Below are positions 3,699-40,177 of a stretch of DNA of 64,000 bases, one piece after another (position 1 is the stretch's first letter; every line of letters begins with the position of its first letter). The stretch lies in assembly GCF_000167195.1 (NCBI RefSeq), contig NZ_AADV02000002.1, positions 186,001 to 250,000 on the forward strand, given 5' to 3'. This stretch comes from Crocosphaera watsonii WH 8501. Its GTDB lineage: Bacteria; Cyanobacteriota; Cyanobacteriia; Cyanobacteriales; Microcystaceae. A program made the position numbers and the translations under genes. Under the pieces are notes generated by a model. It saw nothing but the letters and a program-made list of their open reading frames with translations. It was not told the DNA's origin and did no database searches.

Positions 3699-5304
3699 TT
3701 TCCGAGAAAGCTTTTCCCATAGGGGGTAATCGCTTGGACTAAAGGCTTTCAAGAAATAAAAGGAACAGAGAGTTAGCGGATCTTGGTACACAACTTTAAA
3801 ATTTCATAATTGGCTTGTCTGAAAAAACAGAAGAAATAGATTAAAATGAAGAGGTAAAAAGATTAGAGAGAGTAAATTGAAGCTAAAACAGACAAATCAT
3901 CCCTTAACCCCGTCGATGGTCGATGATTTACGTTTAGCAGCCTCAAAAATGACGGGAGCAGAGCGTCGTTCATTTCAAGCTGAAATGTGTCTCAAGTATT
4001 GTGGAGGAAGTGCCAGACAAACCGAAATCGTGTTTGGTTGGGGGAGAAAAAATGTTCAACTTGGATTACATGAAAAACGAACTGGGATAGTGTGTTTAGG
4101 ATTACAATCAGTCAATAGTGGATGTAAAAAATGGGAGGAAAGATACCCAATAGTTGCCCAATCATTGAAAGAAATAGCCGAAGCTCACGCACAACAAAAC
4201 CCCACATTTAATAACCCCATTGCCTATACAAGATTAACGGCGGCTGAAGCCATTAAACAATTAAGAAATCTAGGATATAATGGAGAGGAGGTTCCTGCTG
4301 CTTCGACAATGGCAGATATTTTAAATCGTTTGGGCTATCGATTAAGAAAAGTGGTAAAAGCTAAACCTAAAAAAAATCTCGGAGACGGACGCTATCTTCG
4401 AGAATATAGAGAAAAAAGATAGAAAAAAAGACCCTTCTGTGAAACGTTTAAGTATGGATTGTAAAGCAACTGTGGAAATAGGAGAATATTCACGTGGCGG
4501 ACAAACTAGAGGTTATAATCAAGCTCAAGATCATGATATGGGAACTAAAGAAAAATACGTTCCTTGTGGGATTGTAGATGAAGATACAGGGTAACTTTAT
4601 GTAACTTTTGGAAGTTCTTATAAAACGAGTGATTTCATGGTAGATAACTTGGAGCAATGGTGGACAAGTCTGAGTATAACTGAAAAGCAGCAACTAGAGA
4701 ACATCCGAATTAAAGTTGATAATGGACCAAAAAATAGTGGAATAAGAAGGCAATTTTTGAAGAGAATGGTAGAGTTTGCCGACCAAACTAAGAAATCTAT
4801 TCAATTACTATATTTTCCTCCTTATCACAGTAAATATAATCCCATAGAAAGATGTTGGGGAATTTTAGAGAGGCATTGGAACGGAACACTTCTGAGAAAT
4901 GCTCAAACGATGTTAGCTTGGGTAAAAACTATGACATGGAAAGGCTTAAATCCGATAGTTAAGTTAAGTAAAAAAGTTTATCAAAAAGGCATTTCTTTAA
5001 CGAAAAAAGAGATGAAGGAAATTGAGAAACGTTTAGAACGTAATCCTCACTTACCTAAATGGGATATTTTGATTAGACCCAGTTAGTCTAAAAAGTTAAT
5101 AAGAGTGTAAAATTAAGTGAATTTCCTTTTTTAAAATAGTCAAAGCTAATTTAAAAGTTAGCGTATTTCTTTCTTTTAGATAGGGAGGTTTTTGTTCGCG
5201 GAAAGTATCCGCGAACAACTTTTTATTTTTCCCTTTTCGCTTATTTGAGATGTTCTACAAACAGATTCTGAGAATGGGTGGGAAACTTTTTCTTGGAAAT
5301 CACC
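3694..5304 (+). mobile_element. ISAzo13-family insertion sequence, copy 1 (1611 bp)
   Basis: The boundaries come from comparing this copy with the one at 43850-45461: identity begins at GGTGATTTCC and ends at GGAAATCACC, which are inverted repeats of each other (longer match GGTGATTTCC.AGAAA). Inside is one transposase gene and, near the right end, a hairpin GTTCGCGGA/TCCGCGAAC. The left flank is a group II intron and the right flank is the middle of a glycosyltransferase gene, so the two sides never belonged together and no direct repeat is present. This points to recombination with another copy or an adjacent deletion. Confidence 0.9.
3877..5086 (+). pseudogene. ISAzo13-family transposase, copy 1, frameshifted and with a nonsense codon
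   Basis: DDE transposase related to the Rhodopirellula/ISAzo13 family. The N-terminal half (3877-4422, TTG start after gagagagtaaa) and the C-terminal half (to 5086) are in different frames; the join is at a run of eight A at 4369-4376, where seven or ten would keep the frame. In addition, GGG CAA of the sister copy is GGG TAA here (stop near 4592), and the catalytic-region motif DNGPENSG reads DNGPKNSG. The C-terminal motif YHSKYNPIERCWG is intact. The sister copy shows what the intact protein would be, so this one is judged dead. Confidence 0.88.
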
Positions 5305-21030: not shown

Positions 21031-21080
21031 GTTATTATAGTGTTTAGTTTTTCTCATGATTATTAGAGGTAAAATTGATT

Positions 21081-22409
21081 ATGAAATTACTTAAAGTCTC
21101 TGTTCCAAATTTTCGTAACCTTAAGAATGTTGAGTTAACCTTTGAACCCAGTTTAAAACCTGCTGTTTTTCCTATTGGTAGCGAAAATGGTGGAGGAAAA
21201 AGTACCTTATTACAATTAATTTTTGTGTTGCTGACTTGTTCATTGGATGATAATAAGAATATTTACTTGAGTAATTTTTTAATTTCTGTCATAGATAACT
21301 TTCAAGATACTGATGAAATAGCTCAATTTGAGTTGAATTATCAAGGAGAAATAATTAATTTTACATTCACTTATTTAGACGAAAATGACAGTGATAATCA
21401 AAAAATAATAAAATTTACAAAAGAGATTTTGAATTTCAAGAAAGATTTACAAGATAAATCAAAGGAGATAACAAATATAGATCAAATTATATCCGAGAAG
21501 AGGAGGGAATATATGGGAGAATCATCAGGATTAGTAGAAAAAAAGTCAAAAGATATAGAAAAGCTAGAAGAGGGCAAACAGACATTAATTTTACAACAAG
21601 AAGAAATTAAACAGTATATAAAATCAACAAATTCTAGACTCTTAATTTATCAAAAAGAGCTAAAAATCCTTTGCTGTAATTATATTGCAGCTCAGGACAA
21701 ATGGATGATTTGTAAGACAAATATTGATAATTTTGAAATATCTTATAAAGCATTTGCTTATGCTAGCAAAAACATTTATTTAGTTACACCACCGACACAG
21801 ATGTTTTTATTTTTTGATCGAGAAATCAAAAAATTGATGGATGGTAATTTTGCTGACTATTACAATAAGGTTAATGCTATAAGAAAACAAATAGCTAATA
21901 TTTACATTTATAATCAATTATCTATAATTGCCATAAAACACGCCTTTAAACAAGCAAGAGAACAAGACTTTAAAACTGCGCTTGAGAATGATAATCTAGA
22001 ATACGGTACAGAATTGAAAGGATTAGCAGAGGATTTTCATCAATTTTTAGGTAATGATAAATATATCAAACCTTCACCAGATATGAATTCCATTATTGTT
22101 GAACGCAAAATCTCAGAAAATGAATTTATAGAACTGGAACCCGAAGAATTAAGTCATGGAGAATTAAAAAAATTAGGCTTGTATGCTTGGATCAAATATA
22201 ATAATATCAATGATTCTATTATTCTCATTGATGAAATTGAAAATGGTTTCCATCCTGATTGGCAATATAATATAGTAAATGAATTAGCATCTTGGGGAGA
22301 TAATCAATATTTATTAGCAACACATTCCTTCTATTTATGTGAAGTATTAACCCCAGCTCATGTTAAAGAAATTGAACCTAAAATGTTAAATCCAAACTCT
22401 GAAGAATAA
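21081..22409 (+). CDS. AAA/ABC-type ATPase of an ATPase + TOPRIM-like pair
   Basis: A 442-residue SMC/RecF-like ATPase. Walker A is GSENGGGKST (residues 33-42), a coiled-coil of roughly 100 residues sits in the middle (FKKDLQDKSKEITNIDQ through KQYIKSTNSRLL), then the ABC signature LSHGELKKLG, Walker B IILIDEIENGFHP and the His-switch LLATHS follow. ATG at 21081 is preferred, with agaggt upstream. The next gene starts nine bases after the stop and looks like a TOPRIM nuclease. This arrangement resembles anti-phage systems of the OLD/PARIS type, in which the ATPase senses and the TOPRIM protein acts. That role is inferred from the pairing, not shown. Confidence 0.85.
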   Translation: MKLLKVSVPNFRNLKNVELTFEPSLKPAVFPIGSENGGGKSTLLQLIFVLLTCSLDDNKNIYLSNFLISVIDNFQDTDEIAQFELNYQGEIINFTFTYLDENDSDNQKIIKFTKEILNFKKDLQDKSKEITNIDQIISEKRREYMGESSGLVEKKSKDIEKLEEGKQTLILQQEEIKQYIKSTNSRLLIYQKELKILCCNYIAAQDKWMICKTNIDNFEISYKAFAYASKNIYLVTPPTQMFLFFDREIKKLMDGNFADYYNKVNAIRKQIANIYIYNQLSIIAIKHAFKQAREQDFKTALENDNLEYGTELKGLAEDFHQFLGNDKYIKPSPDMNSIIVERKISENEFIELEPEELSHGELKKLGLYAWIKYNNINDSIILIDEIENGFHPDWQYNIVNELASWGDNQYLLATHSFYLCEVLTPAHVKEIEPKMLNPNSEE

Positions 22410-22417
22410 AAACTATT

Positions 22418-23407
22418 ATGAATGATATTGAAGTAAAAGATCCAGAATTTTGTCAGATAATATTGAAGCATCGAAGAATAAAAAATAATCTAGTTATTCT
22501 CTGTGAAGGAACTAGAGAATACTTAAATGTTCATACTCCACAACAAATTAAGAGACTAGATGATTTTCCTGATGCTAACTTTTGGAAACAAACTATTCCT
22601 ATGGAATGGAAAAGCAAAAAACCTGTATTTATTCCCTGTGGTTCCCGTTCAGATATTCTGAGAATTTATCCTCAATTAATTGATTTACATAACAATGATC
22701 CTGATAATTCTTATTTATCTCTACATAAACTATTTATTCTCATTGACTTAGATATTCAGTGTCAGGATATAAGCAATATTTGTCCTCATTATCAAACTAC
22801 TGAAGAACTTTATCATGCTATTTATGAAAATAATCCTATTGATACAAACATAATTGATCAATCAAAAATTATTATTACTGGATGGATACATAAAGAAGCA
22901 TATTTTTTAGAACCAGACTTACAAGACTATTTACAAAATGAATTACCTTTAACTAAAATTACATATAAAAATAATCCTTTATCCTTAGAGACTATTTATC
23001 AAGACATGATTCAAGATATAAATGACAATCCAGATATTAATCATCGTGATAATATAAATAATGTTCTCCAACGAATAGAAAAATTTTTATCTATGTCTAT
23101 TCCTGATAAAAACAGTCTTATTAATGAATGTGAAAAATTAAATCAAAATTCAACAATAACCCCTCAAGAAAAAAGAAAACTCATAGAAGTTATCCTAAAA
23201 ATTGTTAAAGCTAAACCTTATTGGGAAGATGAAATTATAATTGAAGATGACTATCTTTCTGAAAATAAAGCTGAAGATAATGTTCTTTTAGCAATAGCTA
23301 GATTTTATGCTAATTCTTGTAATTTATCGGATCAATCTAATTCAACGGTGTATCATATACCTCAATGGGTCAATTTTCTTTATACAAAACACAAAGAATT
23401 AAGGTGA
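22418..23407 (+). CDS. TOPRIM-like (DUF4435-like) partner protein
   Basis: A 329-residue protein whose N-terminal half looks like a TOPRIM fold: a glutamate in NLVILCEGTREY (Glu30), an aspartate pair in LFILIDLDIQ (Asp110, Asp112) and a HKEAYFLEPD segment (about 159-168) at the place where DUF4435-type proteins have REIENYL. These would be the metal-binding residues of a nuclease or related phosphotransferase. It starts nine bases after the ATPase, on the same strand. The last codon pair (AGG TGA) lies in the terminal repeat of a MITE-like sequence at 23404, so a short C-terminal tail may have been replaced. The family call is from these motifs only. Confidence 0.65.
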   Translation: MNDIEVKDPEFCQIILKHRRIKNNLVILCEGTREYLNVHTPQQIKRLDDFPDANFWKQTIPMEWKSKKPVFIPCGSRSDILRIYPQLIDLHNNDPDNSYLSLHKLFILIDLDIQCQDISNICPHYQTTEELYHAIYENNPIDTNIIDQSKIIITGWIHKEAYFLEPDLQDYLQNELPLTKITYKNNPLSLETIYQDMIQDINDNPDINHRDNINNVLQRIEKFLSMSIPDKNSLINECEKLNQNSTITPQEKRKLIEVILKIVKAKPYWEDEIIIEDDYLSENKAEDNVLLAIARFYANSCNLSDQSNSTVYHIPQWVNFLYTKHKELR

Positions 23408-29868: not shown

Positions 29869-30848
29869 TTACATCTCTAATCCTGGGGGACTCCGACCAG
29901 CTAATGACAATAATTTGCATAATTGGACAATGGAATTTTGCCCCTGTAATCTCATGGTCTCTAAAAAACTGAACATTTGGGTGACTAACTCTGCACCCCA
30001 GTCGCTTCTTACTCCCCCACTTACTTTGCGGTGAATGACAATGGGACGTAAAGCTCTCTCAGCATCATTATTATCTGGTTTGACTTCAGGATAAGTTAGA
30101 AAGGTGAACCACTCTTCCCAATGACGTTTGAGACGGTTAATCAATCTTTGTGCATCATAAGGCCATCCTTTTTTGGGAGTTGCTTTAAAAATCTTTTGCA
30201 GTGAGTTCTCGACTTCTGTTCTTTTGGAGCCTAAGTCTTCAAGGGTTAAATTTCGAGCATGATAATGACGATAATGGATACGGGCGGTTGCTAAAACTTG
30301 CTGTACATCGGCAGCAAATTCTCGATTCGCTTGAAAACGACTGGTTTTAAGGGACTCTAACTCTCGTTCTAAATGTGCCAGACATTTCTGTTTGGCCATC
30401 GCACTTTGTCTAAAGTAGGCACTATAGCAGTCACTGGTGAGGATGCCCTTAAAATCTGCTCCTAACAATTTCTCGACTTCTGCGGAGCTTCTAGTGGGAG
30501 CCAACATCAACACACAGACCTCATTTGATGTGGCTACCCAAACCCAATACTTGATGCCATCGATGCAATAACTGGTTTCGTCAACACATCGGATTCCTGG
30601 CTGCTGGATGTACTTTAACCACTGTTGGGTCAAGGGTTCTAAACTTTCTTGAAACCATTTGTGCATTTTGGCAAGGCTCCCTTGAGAAATGGGAATGCCA
30701 AAGACATACTCTATAAAATGTTCCTGTTTACGCCATGTAAGATTACCCCCATAGCCAAGCCAGCCCACGATGCTACTTAATCGCGCCCCATAACTGAATC
30801 CTTCTTTAACTCCCAATGGAACAGGACTGTAATCTGACCATCCACAAC
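29869..30848 (-). pseudogene. IS66-family transposase, N-terminus missing
   Basis: Transposase (TnpC type) of an IS66 element. Reading leftwards from 30848, the frame starts CGWSDYSPVPLGVKEGFSYG, the end of the zinc-binding segment, and runs through KQEHFIEYVFGIPISQGSLA, catalytic-region VDETSYCIDGIKYWVWVATS, ILTSDCYSAYFRQSAMAKQK (second Asp) and NDAERALRPIVIHRKVSGG (Glu region) to the end. The N-terminal leucine-zipper/helix-turn-helix part is missing because IS630 copy A begins at 30851. No TnpA/TnpB accessory genes are seen. It is inactive as it stands. Confidence 0.88.
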
Positions 30849-30850
30849 TA

Positions 30851-32228
30851 GTGCAGCTTGGCGAAAGTAATCCACCAGATTTTTACAGAAACTTTCGTGA
30901 CTAGCCACGACAATGTGTTTCAATGAAACTAACGGAAGAATCTCGAAGTTGATGTCCATGATAAAAGCATTGCCAATTAACCTCTCCAACCTACAGAAAA
31001 CAGTACTCCAACAAATAGTGAGAGGGACAACAAACCCCTATCGCCTTGTTAGACGAGCCAAGCTAATCTTAGCCGCAGCATCAGGAGAGAGCAATAGTTC
31101 GATTAGTCGAAGATTAGAATTAGACCGAGTACAAGTGCGTCAGTGGCGATCGCGATGGTTTGAGGAGAGAGAAAAACTGAGTGCCGCCGAAGAACAACAG
31201 GTAACGGAGAAAGCATTAATGGTCTTGATCAAAGGAATTTTAAGCGATCGCCCAAGACCTGGAACAACAAAATCCTTTACGGTCGAACAAGTAGTCCAGA
31301 TTGTAGCGATCGCTTGTGAAGAATGTGAAAAATCAGACAGACCAGTGAGCCATTGGACACCTTCAGAGTTGGCGGATGAAGCCATAAAAAGAGGAATTGT
31401 CGAAAAGATTTCCCCCCGTAGTGTGGGGCGTTTTTTAAAAAGAAGCGACATTACAACCACATCTCGTTCGTTACTGGTTAAATGCCAAAATTGATGATCC
31501 CTTAAAATTTAAAAAGCAAGTCAAATATATCTGTGAACTTCATCAAGAAGCTAAAACTTTGTTAGAACAAGGAATTCATTTAATTAGTACAGATAAAATG
31601 ACAGGGATTCAAGCTCTTGAGAGATTATTTCCGAACAAAAGAATCAAGCCTAAACAAGTAGAAAAAATCGAATTTGAATATGAAAGACACGGAACTTTAA
31701 GCTTGATTGCGAACTGGGATGTGGCAAGAGGAAAAGTTGTTAGTCCCTCTATTGGACCGACAAGAACAGAACAAGATTTTTCTGAACATATCCAGAGAAC
31801 GATTAAGATTGATGAAAAAGCAGAATGGATTTTTATTGTAGATAAACTCAACACTCATAAATCGGAAAGCTTAGTCAAATTAGTAGCAGAAAGCTGTGGA
31901 ATTACTATTGATTTGGGGAGAAAAGGAAAGGAGGGGATTTTGCAATCTATGGACAGCAGAGCAGATTTTTTATCAGATGAATCTCATCGAATTCGCTTTG
32001 TTTATATTCCCAAACATACATCGTGGCTTAATCAAATTGAGTGTTGGTTTTCGATCTTAGTCCGGCGTTTACTCAAAAGAATTACTGTCCGTTCAACTGA
32101 AGAACTATCCCAAAAAATTCTCAATTTTATTGATTACTTTAATCAACATTTTGCTAAGCCGTTCGTTTGGAAATTTAAGGGCTTTAAAGATCATAAGTAA
32201 CTGGTGGATTATTTTTGCTAAGCTGCAC
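30851..32228 (+). mobile_element. IS630-family insertion sequence, copy A (1378 bp)
   Basis: The ends GTGCAGCTTGGCGAAAGTAA and its near-inverse AAGCTGCAC are flanked on both sides by TA, the hallmark of IS630/Tc1-mariner insertion. Copy B at 61344-62721 has exactly the same length and lies in the opposite orientation. The left flank is an IS66 transposase and the right flank the core of a graspetide precursor; these are unrelated, so either the IS66 element was there before or recombination between copies has joined them. Confidence 0.92.
30952..32200 (+). CDS. IS630-family transposase, two frames joined by frameshifting (copy A)
   Basis: DDE transposase in two overlapping parts. The first (from ATG 30952) carries the helix-turn-helix DNA-binding domains (SISRRLELDRVQVRQWRSRW). 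The second (LQPHLVRYWLNAKIDDPLKF onward) carries the catalytic domain with FIVDKLNTHKSESL (Asp) and HTSWLNQIECWFSIL (Glu). The shift is at GTTTTTTAAAAAG near 31432-31444 and is identical in copy B, which suggests programmed slippage rather than decay. The first catalytic motif reads STDKM here but STDEM in copy B. The C-terminal end is complete (KFKGFKDHK). This copy may be active. Confidence 0.85.
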
Positions 32229-32457
32229 TAGTCGTGCATTAGGAGAGGAAGGTCCACCTCAACCTCCTCAACCCACAACTCGTGCAGTAGGAGAAGAAGA
32301 ACCTCAATTTACTACCTACGCATTGGGAGAGGAAGAACCCTCTACTCGTGCAGCGGGAGAAGAAAGTCAACCCACAACTCGTGCAGTAGGGGAAGAACAA
32401 CCTGAATTTACTACTTTAGCCATAGGAGAAGAAAGTTCTCCCTTTGGACGGTATTAA
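32215..32457 (+). CDS. Graspetide (plesiocin-like) precursor, core region only, leader replaced by IS630 sequence
   Basis: The 80-residue frame contains six copies of a TTxxxxEE-type core motif: TSRALGEE (5-12), TTRAVGEE (21-28), TTYALGEE (33-40), STRAAGEE (43-50), TTRAVGEE (54-61) and TTLAIGEE (66-73), separated by Pro/Gln-rich spacers. This motif is the known core of group 2 (plesiocin-type) graspetides, in which an ATP-grasp ligase joins Thr side chains to Glu side chains by ester bonds. The ligase gene follows with a TAATG overlap. Residues 1-5 come from the right end of IS630 copy A, so the natural leader peptide that binds the ligase is missing. The frame starts at a TTG with no good ribosome binding site. 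Product probably no longer made correctly. Confidence 0.85.
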   Translation: MLSCTSRALGEEGPPQPPQPTTRAVGEEEPQFTTYALGEEEPSTRAAGEESQPTTRAVGEEQPEFTTLAIGEESSPFGRY

Positions 32458-33365
32458 TGGTTGATTTAGATCCCAGCAAAACCTTGGTGATAGCAGGTGG
32501 CCACTCAGATCCTAATTTGGGTCAATTGGTGGCCACTGCTCAACAAGCTGGTATTGTGGTGCAAGACCTTCGCCACGGTGTCAAAGATAGTCCTCCCCTA
32601 TCTTGGCAAGTTAATCAAGGTTCTCTCAAGGTCAATAATCAAGAAATCAAGCCTTATGGTGCGTTCATTCGTTATGATGTTTTTGCCGGGATGGAGGACT
32701 CTCGGCCAGAGGTAGCAAAACGGGCCATGGGTTGGTATCAAACCCTGCAAGGATGGTTATTATCTGACCCGAAGATTAGACTATTTAATCGTCATCAATC
32801 TCCCATGGGTGGCAATAAAGGTGCTACTTTGGTACTGGCACAACAATGCGGTTTAGAGATTCCTCAAACCATGATTACCAACGAAGAAGCATCTTTACGG
32901 CAATATACTCCAGGAACAGCGATCGCTAAACCGGTGGCCGGTGGGGATTATTGTTATGGGTTAGAAGAACTTTTAAACGGGGTTGAGTTTCGTTCAGGTT
33001 GTGCTGCTAATCTTGCTATTGTCCAAAATAGACTGGTATCTCCAGAAATTAGGATTTATATTGTGGGTAATCAAGCATTGGCTTTTGAAATGCGCAGTAA
33101 TTCCCTTGATTATCGAGTTAAACAAGATGCAGAGGTGATCTTTTTAGGGGAGGTTCCCTCAGAGGTGGAATCATTACGGGTTCTCACGGCTAAACTGAAT
33201 ATGGATTTTGGGGCCGCTGATTTTAAGAGTGATCCACAAACAGGAAAATTGGTTTTCCTCGAACTGAATACCTCTCCCATGTTTGCTCGTTTTAATCAAG
33301 TGTCTCAAGGTGCATTATGTACGGCAATGTTAAAGACACTATTGTCAATCGAAGGTAATGATTGA
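32457..33365 (+). CDS. ATP-grasp ligase for graspetide macrocyclisation
   Basis: A 302-residue ATP-grasp enzyme of the MvdC/MvdD/PsnB group. Visible landmarks: MGGNKGATLVLAQQCGLEIP (ATP-grasp start of the central domain), AIAKPVAGGDYCYG (ATP-binding lysine), IVQNRLVSPEIRIYIVGNQA (core-peptide binding arginine region) and FGAADFKSD...LVFLELNTSPMFA (metal-binding Asp/Glu/Asn). It should form ester bonds between Thr and Glu side chains of the precursor just upstream, whose stop codon overlaps its ATG (TAATG). Its own 3' end overlaps the next gene by eight bases, so all three genes are coupled. The gene looks intact although the precursor has lost its leader. Confidence 0.9.
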   Translation: MVDLDPSKTLVIAGGHSDPNLGQLVATAQQAGIVVQDLRHGVKDSPPLSWQVNQGSLKVNNQEIKPYGAFIRYDVFAGMEDSRPEVAKRAMGWYQTLQGWLLSDPKIRLFNRHQSPMGGNKGATLVLAQQCGLEIPQTMITNEEASLRQYTPGTAIAKPVAGGDYCYGLEELLNGVEFRSGCAANLAIVQNRLVSPEIRIYIVGNQALAFEMRSNSLDYRVKQDAEVIFLGEVPSEVESLRVLTAKLNMDFGAADFKSDPQTGKLVFLELNTSPMFARFNQVSQGALCTAMLKTLLSIEGND

Positions 33366-33864
33366 TTTAAGGAAAGCAGTCTATTACGAATATATTGATG
33401 ATGGTGTGGTTGAAATTTTCGACAAATATAAATGGGGACTGAGACGGTTAGGGGTTAACTTTTCTCAAGAATTATTAGAAACTATCGTCTATTGTTCCCG
33501 AAATTTAGAGAATACGTTAATGGCATTTTGTTCTTGGGTTTTATGGTTAAAAAGTCGAGGAGAAAAACCCAATTCTGATATTTTATCGGAAACATTAATC
33601 AACGCCTTAAAATCTGAGATTGGTTGGATACCTTACGATTATCAAAAGGACTTTTTACAGCAAAATCTAGACATTTTAGAAAGTCCTCAAGTTTCTTTAT
33701 GGAAAACAGCAGAGAAAGAGTTAGGAGCAAGTTTAAGAAACCGAGTTATTGCTGATATCTCTGAAGAAGGTGAGCTTATTTTTAAAGTAAATGTTTTATT
33801 AACAGATGACGAAAGGGAAAAAATTGAACGGTTTAAAATTTATATTGACCAATTATTTTTATAG
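33358..33864 (+). CDS. Unknown protein coupled to the graspetide ligase
   Basis: A 168-residue soluble, mostly helical-looking protein starting at ATG 33358 inside the last codons of the ligase gene. I do not recognise the family. It begins MIDLRKAVYYEYIDDGVVEI, has RNLENTLMAFCSWVLWLKSR in the middle and ends with VNVLLTDDEREKIERFKIYI. The overlap implies co-translation with the ligase. It is not a transporter or a protease by its sequence (no spans, no catalytic motif seen). It may be an accessory factor of the pathway or an unrelated passenger. Confidence 0.75.
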   Translation: MIDLRKAVYYEYIDDGVVEIFDKYKWGLRRLGVNFSQELLETIVYCSRNLENTLMAFCSWVLWLKSRGEKPNSDILSETLINALKSEIGWIPYDYQKDFLQQNLDILESPQVSLWKTAEKELGASLRNRVIADISEEGELIFKVNVLLTDDEREKIERFKIYIDQLFL

Positions 33865-37366: not shown

Positions 37367-37399
37367 TTGAATAGAGTAGTAAATAATTACCACAAAACT

Positions 37400-39040
37400 A
37401 TGGATTCTATTCGACTACAAAGATTACGTTGTTTATCAGATACCGGGGAAATTAAAATTAAACCCATTACGATACTTGTGGGAGAAAATAGTTCAGGGAA
37501 AAGTACCTTTTTGCGTTTCTTTCCTTTACTTAAGCAAAGTGTTGAGTCTAGAACCATTGGACCGGTTTTATGGAATGGTCGATTAGTGGATTTCGGCAAC
37601 TATAAAGATGCTCATCAAAAGCATTCTGAAGAGGATATTTGTTTAGAGTTTAAATTTGAAATTCCTTCCTTTCCAAAAAATAATGCTTAAAAAAAAAATA
37701 CAGACGAAGAAATAATATTCTGGTCAAGTAGAAGACCATTAATATTTAATCCCATTGATGTTTCTGTTATTTTACAGCTTTTAGAAGAGAAAAAACAACA
37801 GATTACTATAATACATAAATTGATCATAAAATTTGCCGATTCTGTAATTCAACTTGAAATAAACAAAGAGAATAAAATCTCTTGCTTTTTAGTAAATTCC
37901 TTTGATATTTTAGAAATGTTAGGTGATAAATATATTTTGTTTGATTTGGGTCATAAATTTATGTTACCGCAAGTAAGAGAATTTTCAAATAATCAAGAGA
38001 AAATTCTCAACTTAGGAGTTTTGAACAGAGTCAATAGAACAAGATTTATTTTTCAACAATTATTCAGTAAACTTTTTCAAATAACAAAAAATAAAGCCCA
38101 TAAGTTTACATCAGAAACTACTATTTTCAAAATGATATCTTCATTTGTCATTGGAGATTCAGCAACTATGCTTCAAGATATTAAAAATAATCCTTTTTCT
38201 ACCAAAACTTGGAAGAAAAGCGTAAACTCATGGACAATAGAATCTAATGAATTTAGGCAATTTAGAGATTTAATTATCGCTAACTCAGTACCTTGGTTAC
38301 TAGAAGAATGTGATGATTTATTAGCTAATTTTGCTACTAAAATTAGTTATATGGGTCCAGTTAGAGCAACAGCAGAGCGTTACTATAGAACACAAGATTT
38401 AGCAGTAGATGAGGTAGATTATCAGGGAACTAATTTACCAATGTTTCTCCGAAATTTAACACATGGAGAATTGAAAGAATTTAGGACTTGGACACTTAAT
38501 AATTTTGGTTTTGAACCTCTAATCACAACAAGTCAAGGATTAATTTCTTTAGAAATACGACCTTCTAAAGATTCTAAAGAATCTTTTAATGTTGCTGATA
38601 CAGGATTTGGTTTTTCTCAAATTTTGCCTATTATTACTCAGTTATGGTTTCTGAGTGAGTTTACTAAGACTTCTTCAAGAATTCGTCCTCCTGGTTTCCG
38701 ATATAATAGTCCTGTTATTTTCCCTATTGAACAGCCTGAATTACATTTACATCCCCGTTTACAAGGAGTTTTAGCTGAAGTATTTGTTAAATCAATTGAA
38801 GCAGCAAAAGAAAGAGGGATTGATTTACGTTTAGTCATTGAAACCCATAGCGAAGTTCTAATTAATAAATTAGGATATCTGGTTGCAGAAAAACACATTT
38901 TACCAGAAGATATTAATATAGTATTATTTTATAAATCTGATCAATCTAAAGAAATAAAAGTCAGGACAAGTCAATTTGATTCTGAGGGTTATTTAAGCGA
39001 AGATTGGCCATTAGGATTTTTTGATATGGATCTTATTTAA
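37400..39040 (+). pseudogene. AAA-type ATPase (DUF3696-like), with one in-frame stop
   Basis: A second ATPase of an ATPase + partner pair. From ATG 37400 the frame has KIKPITILVGENSSGKSTFL (Walker A, residues 28-36) and then meets TAA at 37688. The same frame continues without a shift: EEIIFWSSRRPLIFNPIDVS, MLQDIKNNPF, VADTGFGFSQILPIITQLWF, Walker B region FPIEQPELHLHPRLQG and VIETHSEVLINKLG, ending SEGYLSEDWPLGFFDMDLI, the typical end of DUF3696 ATPases. So only one codon (probably AAA to TAA within an A-rich stretch) breaks it. The partner gene starts one base after the stop. Related ATPases occur in anti-phage modules. Confidence 0.85.
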
Positions 39041-39041
39041 T

Positions 39042-40177
39042 ATGTTGATTAAAATTGATGTTTCTGTTGTCCAGAGTTTTGAAAATTCTAATTCATGGCC
39101 AGATGATCTTATTATAGCTCTTGAAAATTTAGCACTTGCAAGACGTGAAGGCAAACATTCAATAATTGCAGATTTAAACACTTTAAAAATAATTGCAAAA
39201 TGTTCAGACTTATCTAAAAATGCCAAAATTTCTTATAAAAAAATATTAAATGACAGACCTAAATTTAAAGCTTATCTTTCCCATGTCTCTAGATATATTG
39301 AAATTATTCATCCTTGTAATGTTAATAAAATAGATTCTAATTCAGGAAAAGATATTATTAAATTACCTTACACTTTTTTCAATGATTCAGAAACAATACA
39401 AAAATCTATACTGTTGTGTAAAAATTTACAAGATACTGAATTTTATAAAATAATCGCTGAAACTTTTTGTAAATGGAAACGATTAAATATTAAACCAAAA
39501 TTTGAACCATCCTTAGGAGGAGGAAATACAATATCAACTGTATATGAGAATATTCAAAATAAGAAAAAAAGATTGTGTCTATGTATTGTTGATAGTGATA
39601 AGTTATCTCCTAATAGTAGTCTAGGTTCTACAGCTAGAAATATTAAACAAAAAGATGATAATACTTCCGTTACGACGCTACTTTATATTTTACCCGTTCG
39701 TGAACTTGAAAACTTAATCCCTCTTTCAATTTTATCTGAACTTATGTCTAAAAATGGAGATAGAGAAAACCCTTTTAAACAATTAGAAAAAATTGAAGAA
39801 AGTTCAGTAAAAGAAATACGAAATTTTTTAGATATCAAAGAAGGAACAAGACTAAAAAAATAGTTAATGAACCGAGTTCAGTCAAAGATTTTTGGAAAGA
39901 TAAACTTGATAAACTGCCAAATTATTCCAATGATATTGATGAATGGTGTTATGAAAATTGGTCGTGTTGTGATCCTGATCCTAAGAAAAAATCATGTAAG
40001 TGTAAGATTTCATTAGGTTTTGGTCAAAAAATCCTAGAAAATACAATTACTTATCTCAATACTCAATCTTCATTTACAATTCCTTCTATGGTTGAAGAGT
40101 CTTTACATTCTGAATGGAAAAATATTGGACAACTTATGCTAAATTGGGGCTTCGCAGATTCTCCAATTCGTGTTTAA
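39042..40177 (+). pseudogene. TOPRIM-like partner of the second ATPase, frameshifted near its end
   Basis: Starts at ATG 39042 right after the ATPase stop. The first 273 codons contain RLCLCIVDSDKLSPNSSLGS, with an Asp-x-Asp pair, and LPVRELENLIPLSILSEL, the same place and type of motif as REIENYL in DUF4435/OLD-type TOPRIM proteins. The frame then ends at a run of seven A (39853-39859, CTAAAAAAATAG). In the +1 frame it continues about 105 codons (KDFWKDKLDKLPNYSNDIDE, then a cysteine cluster ENWSCCDPDPKKKSCKCKIS) to a TAA at 40177. A one-base change in the A run explains the break. Function is inferred from the pairing with the ATPase. Confidence 0.72.

Follow-up and report, generated by a model that had tools for sequence, protein, structure and literature searches.

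A two-gene graspetide cassette with a repeat-rich precursor, probably split by an IS630-family element, in Crocosphaera watsonii WH 8501

Repeats of the plesiocin type run into one end of an IS630-family element in the window (the whole 64,000-nucleotide stretch of DNA analysed here), directly upstream of an ATP-grasp ligase gene and a gene for a 168-residue protein. Are these genes the remains of a single graspetide pathway, and has its peptide been lost? We read the locus as the severed half of a two-gene cassette, precursor and ligase, which was split by IS630 and had been inserted before the third gene; we put the probability of this reading at about 0.82, given the anatomy, homology, gene pairing, split and synteny observed below. 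The features concerned are the following.

29869..30846, minus strand: IS66-type transposase fragment (Pfam DDE_Tnp_IS66, 1.5e-40), the left flank of IS630 copy A
30847..32232, plus strand: IS630-family copy A, with ends ACTAGTGCAGC / GCTGCACTAGT, IS66 as left flank and the graspetide precursor as right flank
32215..32457, plus strand: 3' half of the precursor gene, with six [ST][ST]xxxxEE repeats and a C-terminal SPFGRY
32457..33365, plus strand: predicted graspetide synthetase (ATP-grasp ligase), from a TIGR04187 match and a sequence and fold match to PsnB
33358..33864, plus strand: 168-aa protein with no Pfam match above cut-off, a neighbour judged to lie outside the pathway

The severed precursor and its ligase

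The original prediction of three overlapping frames (32215-32457, 32457-33365 and 33358-33864) was confirmed, as was its count of six TTxxxxEE-type motifs in the first of them. This 80-aa frame takes its TTG start from the IS630 end, from which its codons up to about 32228 are derived, and its [ST][ST]xxxxEE motifs (four TTxxxxEE, one TS and one ST) start at 32227, 32275, 32311, 32341, 32374 and 32410. Shuffling the same 80 residues 20,000 times gave a mean of 0.094 motifs and a maximum of 3, and the six-frame translation of the window outside this frame contained six single matches to the pattern. The C-terminus resembles the ends of nine intact orthologous precursors ([GS][GS]PFG[RW]Y). Promoter-like sites between 32100 and 34060 numbered 5, against 5.5 expected from shuffles, and none lay before the ligase.

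The ligase start overlaps the precursor stop as TAATG. A Pfam search with the ligase gave no match, and its NCBIfam matches were all far under their cut-offs; the best of them was TIGR04187 (5.8e-19, 68 bits, under the family cut-off of 350). The best PDB sequence match was 7drm (4e-11), which the fold search names as PsnB. An AlphaFold model built from 25 aligned ligases had a mean pLDDT of 85.7 and a pTM of 0.86, and the first 12 Foldseek matches of this model in the PDB were all PsnB chains (query TM 0.70-0.76), followed by PruB, AMdnB and MdnC. PsnB is thus the nearest solved relative, yet the window ligase is only about 20-23% identical to its chains. All 18 columns that are invariant across the 25 ligases are kept, including K158, R199, D255, E269 and N271. 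By its predicted fold, the window ligase is a graspetide synthetase, and sequence comparison makes the assignment of the locus to the graspetides well supported. The prediction of a plesiocin-like TTxxxxEE core with a graspetide-type ATP-grasp ligase, severed by IS630, was thus borne out. By analogy with plesiocin, this relative of PsnB would use ATP to activate the repeat glutamates, the two threonines of each repeat would form two nested side-chain esters, and the product would be a chain of hairpin bicycles.

Two other loci of the window gave matches in PADLOC. At 37367-39863, an AAA ATPase in two frames and a 280-aa partner matched NsnB and PDC-M55A/PDC-M55B; they form a candidate pair for anti-phage defence, apparently a broken one. 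At 21075-23407, an AAA_21/AAA_15 ATPase with AriA/PtuA-like matches is followed by a 329-aa protein with no PADLOC match, and the two may form a defence pair.

Related cassettes and their N-terminal domain

Among 98 near relatives searched with the ligase, only remote matches (23-34%) were found besides the genome analysed here (G000); a search of plasmids at E 1e-10 and a ligase-only search of genome_contigs gave no match. Close orthologues surfaced only in a search of 388 genomes of the order, of which 89 had a ligase match. Only nine of these genomes, not counting G000, carry near-full-length orthologues (58-61% identical over the matched part; 56-60% in alignment), and further relatives were a partial ligase in G317 and a 40% identical cousin in G227. 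The match in G279 was flagged with a stop, but the frame at this locus (L111) is open over 296 aa. In a tree in which long branches were flagged, the window ligase was one of 11 members of a clade supported at 100/100, from which the ligases of small-leader TTLALGEEGG cassettes stood apart.

At all nine intact loci the precursor gene lies directly upstream of the ligase gene with the TAATG overlap. The intact precursors, counted from MKVF, are 233-313 aa long and contain 10-17 [ST][ST]xxxxEE repeats after 109-113 conserved residues; their layout is a conserved domain of ~110 residues followed by 10-17 TTxAxGEE-type repeats. Across two 388-genome searches, a full or near-full leader was found in 12 and a close ligase in 11 (that of G317 partial), and both occurred together in 11; the sole genome with a leader and no ligase was G001, whose precursor is severed by a contig end. 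The uninterrupted locus that the original prediction had suggested looking for in relatives therefore exists, in nine genomes, and its pairing of precursor and ligase stood, since every intact locus pairs them and the repeats recur in other genomes.

Searching with the N-terminal domain gave 13 named loci, from five Symploca, three Okeania, two Moorena and one each of Oscillatoria, Trichodesmium and Crocosphaera, all marine genera; 12 of the 13 belong to records titled as metagenome-assembled genomes. The predicted two-gene graspetide cassette, precursor and then ligase, is thus spread over several cyanobacterial genera. A Pfam scan of 17 of the 34 listed neighbours, at seven of the nine loci (all but L113 and L114), found no transporter or C39 peptidase beside the cassette; the neighbours seen included an S49 peptidase (L110), a CHAT protein (L107) and alpha/beta-hydrolase S33-type proteins (L109 and L112).

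Several loci in the order were incomplete or divergent. G363 (L143) is a deletion relic in which leader residues 1-29 lie beside ligase residues 257-297, G284 (L140) retains leader residues 1-45 only, G195 (L146) has leader residues 1-28 left, and in G317 the precursor end and ligase residues 1-138 are missing. The fragments of G363 and G195 lie between methylase-like and Mur-ligase-like genes (Pfam was tested on L106 only), which also flank the intact copies in L106 and L113 and, further out, L114. In G227 (L116:9117-9830, plus strand), a precursor with 16 repeats lies beside the 40% identical ligase. This precursor has no N-terminal domain in frame, the upstream frames being broken by stops, and the domain may therefore be dispensable.

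The leaders of the nine intact precursors are 77-82% identical to the G000 leader, with 67 of 113 columns invariant. This leader is unusual because it has stand-alone relatives of about 30% identity: five repeat-less proteins (no TTxxxxEE) from four other cyanobacterial genomes align with it at 29-34%, and 19 columns, including the pattern T-x-G-W-x-N, are invariant throughout. Domain matches occurred in 19 of the 388 genomes: 12 had a near-complete leader, three a fragment and the other four remote stand-alone proteins. Among 386 genomes of the phylum the leader family was found in two, one being G000. A tblastn search with one stand-alone protein matched six proteobacterial plasmids (best 3e-16); the G000 leader itself matches one of these, from Mesorhizobium, at 3e-5, beside genes annotated as encoding an M4 metallopeptidase and emfourin. 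Searches with the leader gave no match in the PDB or in viral contigs and only chance-level matches in Pfam and NCBIfam (E 0.15 and 0.25). Its structure model was unusable (mean pLDDT 42.9) and merely hinted at strands, so the proposal that the N-terminal ~110 residues form a folded domain rests on homology. A further proposal, which we consider unlikely though worth stating, is that the domain is a folded module recruited from the stand-alone family that stays attached; the product would then be no small peptide but a protein of ~25-33 kDa with a tail of 10-17 ester-stapled hairpins, acting as a multivalent protease inhibitor, and the window ligase may act in trans on the IS-truncated protein made of the leader and six repeats.

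The IS630 junction, the divergence of the ligase and the third gene

A leader search of G000 gave one strong match, on contig 296; the sole other match had an E value of 0.57. The contig 296 leader is located at G000:C296:3533, is 79% identical to the L108 leader and enters another IS630 copy at 4100. Its frame, with AGGAG before the ATG, is 196 aa long and spans the leader and six complete repeats. When the flank left of IS630 on C296 was joined at a single TA to the flank right of copy A in the window, an open 265-aa frame with 12 repeats ran to the native stop; TA is present at both ends of IS630, and a continuous site is obtained only from this pair of flanks. The leader had been predicted to be cut off by IS630: it was indeed severed by IS630, but it survives on contig 296 of the same genome. 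The strain has therefore not simply lost the peptide while keeping the ligase, as had been supposed, and the six repeats of the window, although correctly counted, are only half of the 12 in the joined frame. Since the contig 296 half keeps a likely ribosome site and six complete repeats, it could serve in trans as a substrate for the ligase, whose frame is still open.

The name IS630 is that of the original prediction and agrees with Pfam HTH and DDE_3 transposase matches and with the TA ends. Copy A shares 99.6% identity with the second copy in the window and 98.5-99.8% with the remaining full-length copies fetched, which makes the event look recent. The two flanks of copy A are mismatched. 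On its left lies an IS66 element broken at TA, with 40 further matches in the genome, some of them partial; 11 other inspected IS66 copies continue ..CCACAACTAGGACATT.. beyond the point where copy A interrupts. Because the left flank is IS66 and the expected continuation is absent, copy A is a hybrid, formed by recombination between copies or by an assembly error; the missing IS66 half was not found in the flanks of 30 IS630 loci, taken from 40 matches listed. We propose that an IS630 element entered the repeat array of G000 midway, at one TA, and that exchange between IS630 copies, or chimeric assembly at IS630, would then have separated the halves, leaving the leader and six repeats on contig 296 and six repeats and the ligase in the window.

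In one variant of this reading, the insertion was a simple one, the two halves still flank a single IS630 copy, and their placement on separate contigs, 296 and 322, results from misassembly at a multi-copy repeat. The meeting of the halves at one TA to give an open frame fits this variant, as does the abundance of the elements in a draft of 323 contigs (at least 40 matches to the IS630 left end; about 40 each for IS630 and IS66), and some other IS630 copies, such as L053 and L063, share one flank but not the other. However, the IS66-IS630-precursor junction is internal to the 710 kb contig C322, and C296 carries on into another gene past IS630. Neither point is decisive, and we regard an assembly error as realistic but somewhat improbable.

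The mean identity of the window ligase to its nine orthologues was 58.6%, compared with 80.3% for the leader in the same nine genomes. Among themselves, the nine orthologous loci gave means of 83.3% for the ligase and 84.6% for the leader; the window ligase is thus far more diverged than the leader of its own cassette, unlike the pattern among the orthologues. It also deviates at 49 of the 193 columns that are invariant in the nine orthologues, and altered specificity or decay is therefore possible. Decay of the whole pathway, with the halves as relics of a cassette that is being lost and relaxed constraint on the ligase, would be compatible with a split two-gene cassette and would account for the faster divergence of the window ligase and for damaged copies elsewhere (G363, G284, G195 and G317). 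However, no stop interrupts either precursor half or the ligase, the repeats are intact, and the ligase retains the 18 invariant columns; it has also probably diverged too far for the change to have followed the arrival of an IS630 copy so similar to the others. We therefore give decay a rather less than even chance.

The ligase gene and the third gene share 8 bases, the ligase stop TGA being part of the codons with which the third gene itself begins (ATGATTGA). In two congeners (L031 and L033), frames with no relation to the ligase stop at this point too. For these reasons the overlap, which had been put forward as a sign of coupling, is real but weak evidence of it. The third gene was found in 17 of the 98 relatives (G000 included), six of the eight congeners among them (77-86% identity). 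The ligase has no match whatsoever in fifteen of the 17 genomes; in G004 a remote match (31%) lies on a different contig, and G000 alone carries the two genes side by side. Conversely, the third gene is absent from all 19 ligase loci at E 1e-5, although at L111 the contig stops ~320 bases past the ligase; of 12 genomes with the cassette or the G227 cousin, two have remote relatives of the third gene (34% and 38%), on other contigs. The original prediction had made this protein a candidate pathway component whose co-occurrence with the ligase should be compared; it is found mostly without the ligase, and we reject the proposed role.

In G002-G007 the third gene has an E2-type acyltransferase gene on its upstream side and a photolyase-related gene on its downstream side, and tblastn found no ligase in the fetched stretches. 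These neighbours were judged by N-terminal likeness, with Pfam run on the E2 protein of C296 and the photolyase-related protein of L031. A different set of neighbours, again lacking a ligase, was seen at loci L037-L039, and the survey excludes five weak-match loci (L026-L030). The 168-residue protein itself is conserved in cyanobacteria, and in six congeners its gene precedes the photolyase-related one. In G002 the third gene follows directly on a gene of 309 aa. The homologue of this gene on C296, 318 aa long and upstream of the precursor half, is 85% identical to it, and the E2-type acyltransferase gene beyond shows 95% identity. Since the 318-aa gene precedes the precursor half and its homologue precedes the third gene in G002, this synteny suggests that the cassette was most likely inserted between these two genes; the third gene would have been resident first, with the cassette placed in front of it. 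Partner-dependent graspetide synthetases exist (PMC13097080, in its accessible text), MirC being a partner protein for rosaritide, and the eight-base overlap would suit a three-gene pathway with the 168-residue protein in a role like that of MirC, but the 19 ligase loci without the gene, its setting in G002-G007 and the confinement of its remote relatives to sites away from the cassette make such a pathway highly improbable.

Comparison with known graspetide systems

Plesiocin has the core motif TTxxxxEE, and group 2 (plesiocin-type) graspetides have a short leader peptide. Like plesiocin and PsnB, the cassette combines TTxxxxEE-type repeats with an ATP-grasp ligase, and PsnB is the best PDB match of this ligase in both sequence and fold. 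The repeated core of group 2 is present, with 10-17 repeats in the nine intact precursors and 12 across the G000 halves, whereas plesiocin has 4. In contrast to the short leader of plesiocin, the cassette has a conserved N-terminal domain with stand-alone relatives, and its ligase is cyanobacterial and distant from PsnB. According to the accessible text of PMC12291112, tetravalent plesiocin carries two esters in each repeat, i.e. eight rings. If two esters close per repeat here as well, one enzyme would form up to 34 rings per chain in the intact members.

Cyanobacterial TTLALGEEGG cassettes (among L042-L047 and L117-L123) also have TTxxxxGEE-type motifs near an ATP-grasp ligase. However, their leaders are short and of the PFxL type where the start is visible, several ending in GG, they carry 1-8 motifs, and their ligases form a separate clade, 23-26% identical in alignment. 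No precursor with two or more motifs was flagged beside L119, L123 or L124. At L043:7824-9623 (minus strand, G073), a 600-aa graspetide-type precursor frame lies directly before a ligase; it has an HPFEL leader motif, then Calx-beta domains (Pfam 2.7e-34), and seven TTLALGEEGG-type motifs by pattern or eight by eye, so that an array of cores sits on a large repeat protein.

Microviridins differ from the window cassette in core, leader motif and ring topology. The multi-core AMdnA/AMdnC microviridin is similar in that a single cyanobacterial ligase serves several cores per chain, three in that case (PMC5934393, in the portion available). Groups 34 and 35 of Carter et al. 2026 often have long precursors with repeating motifs, and group 35 consists of synthetase and precursor only (PMC13097080, from the portion available); compared by description only, these groups resemble the cassette in their long repeated precursors. 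The window cassette is not described in the accessible portions of PMC13097080, PMC8939145, PMC12291112, PMC5934393 and PMC13003496, a scope outside which the member lists of groups 34 and 35 lie.

A leader derived from a domain with stand-alone relatives would allow the origin of precursor leaders to be tested directly, and the split locus is a natural experiment showing whether such a pathway can outlast the separation of precursor and ligase. Taken together, these comparisons suggest that plesiocin-like graspetides with a domain leader and a high repeat number are a variant, which the published groups 34 and 35 may already include.
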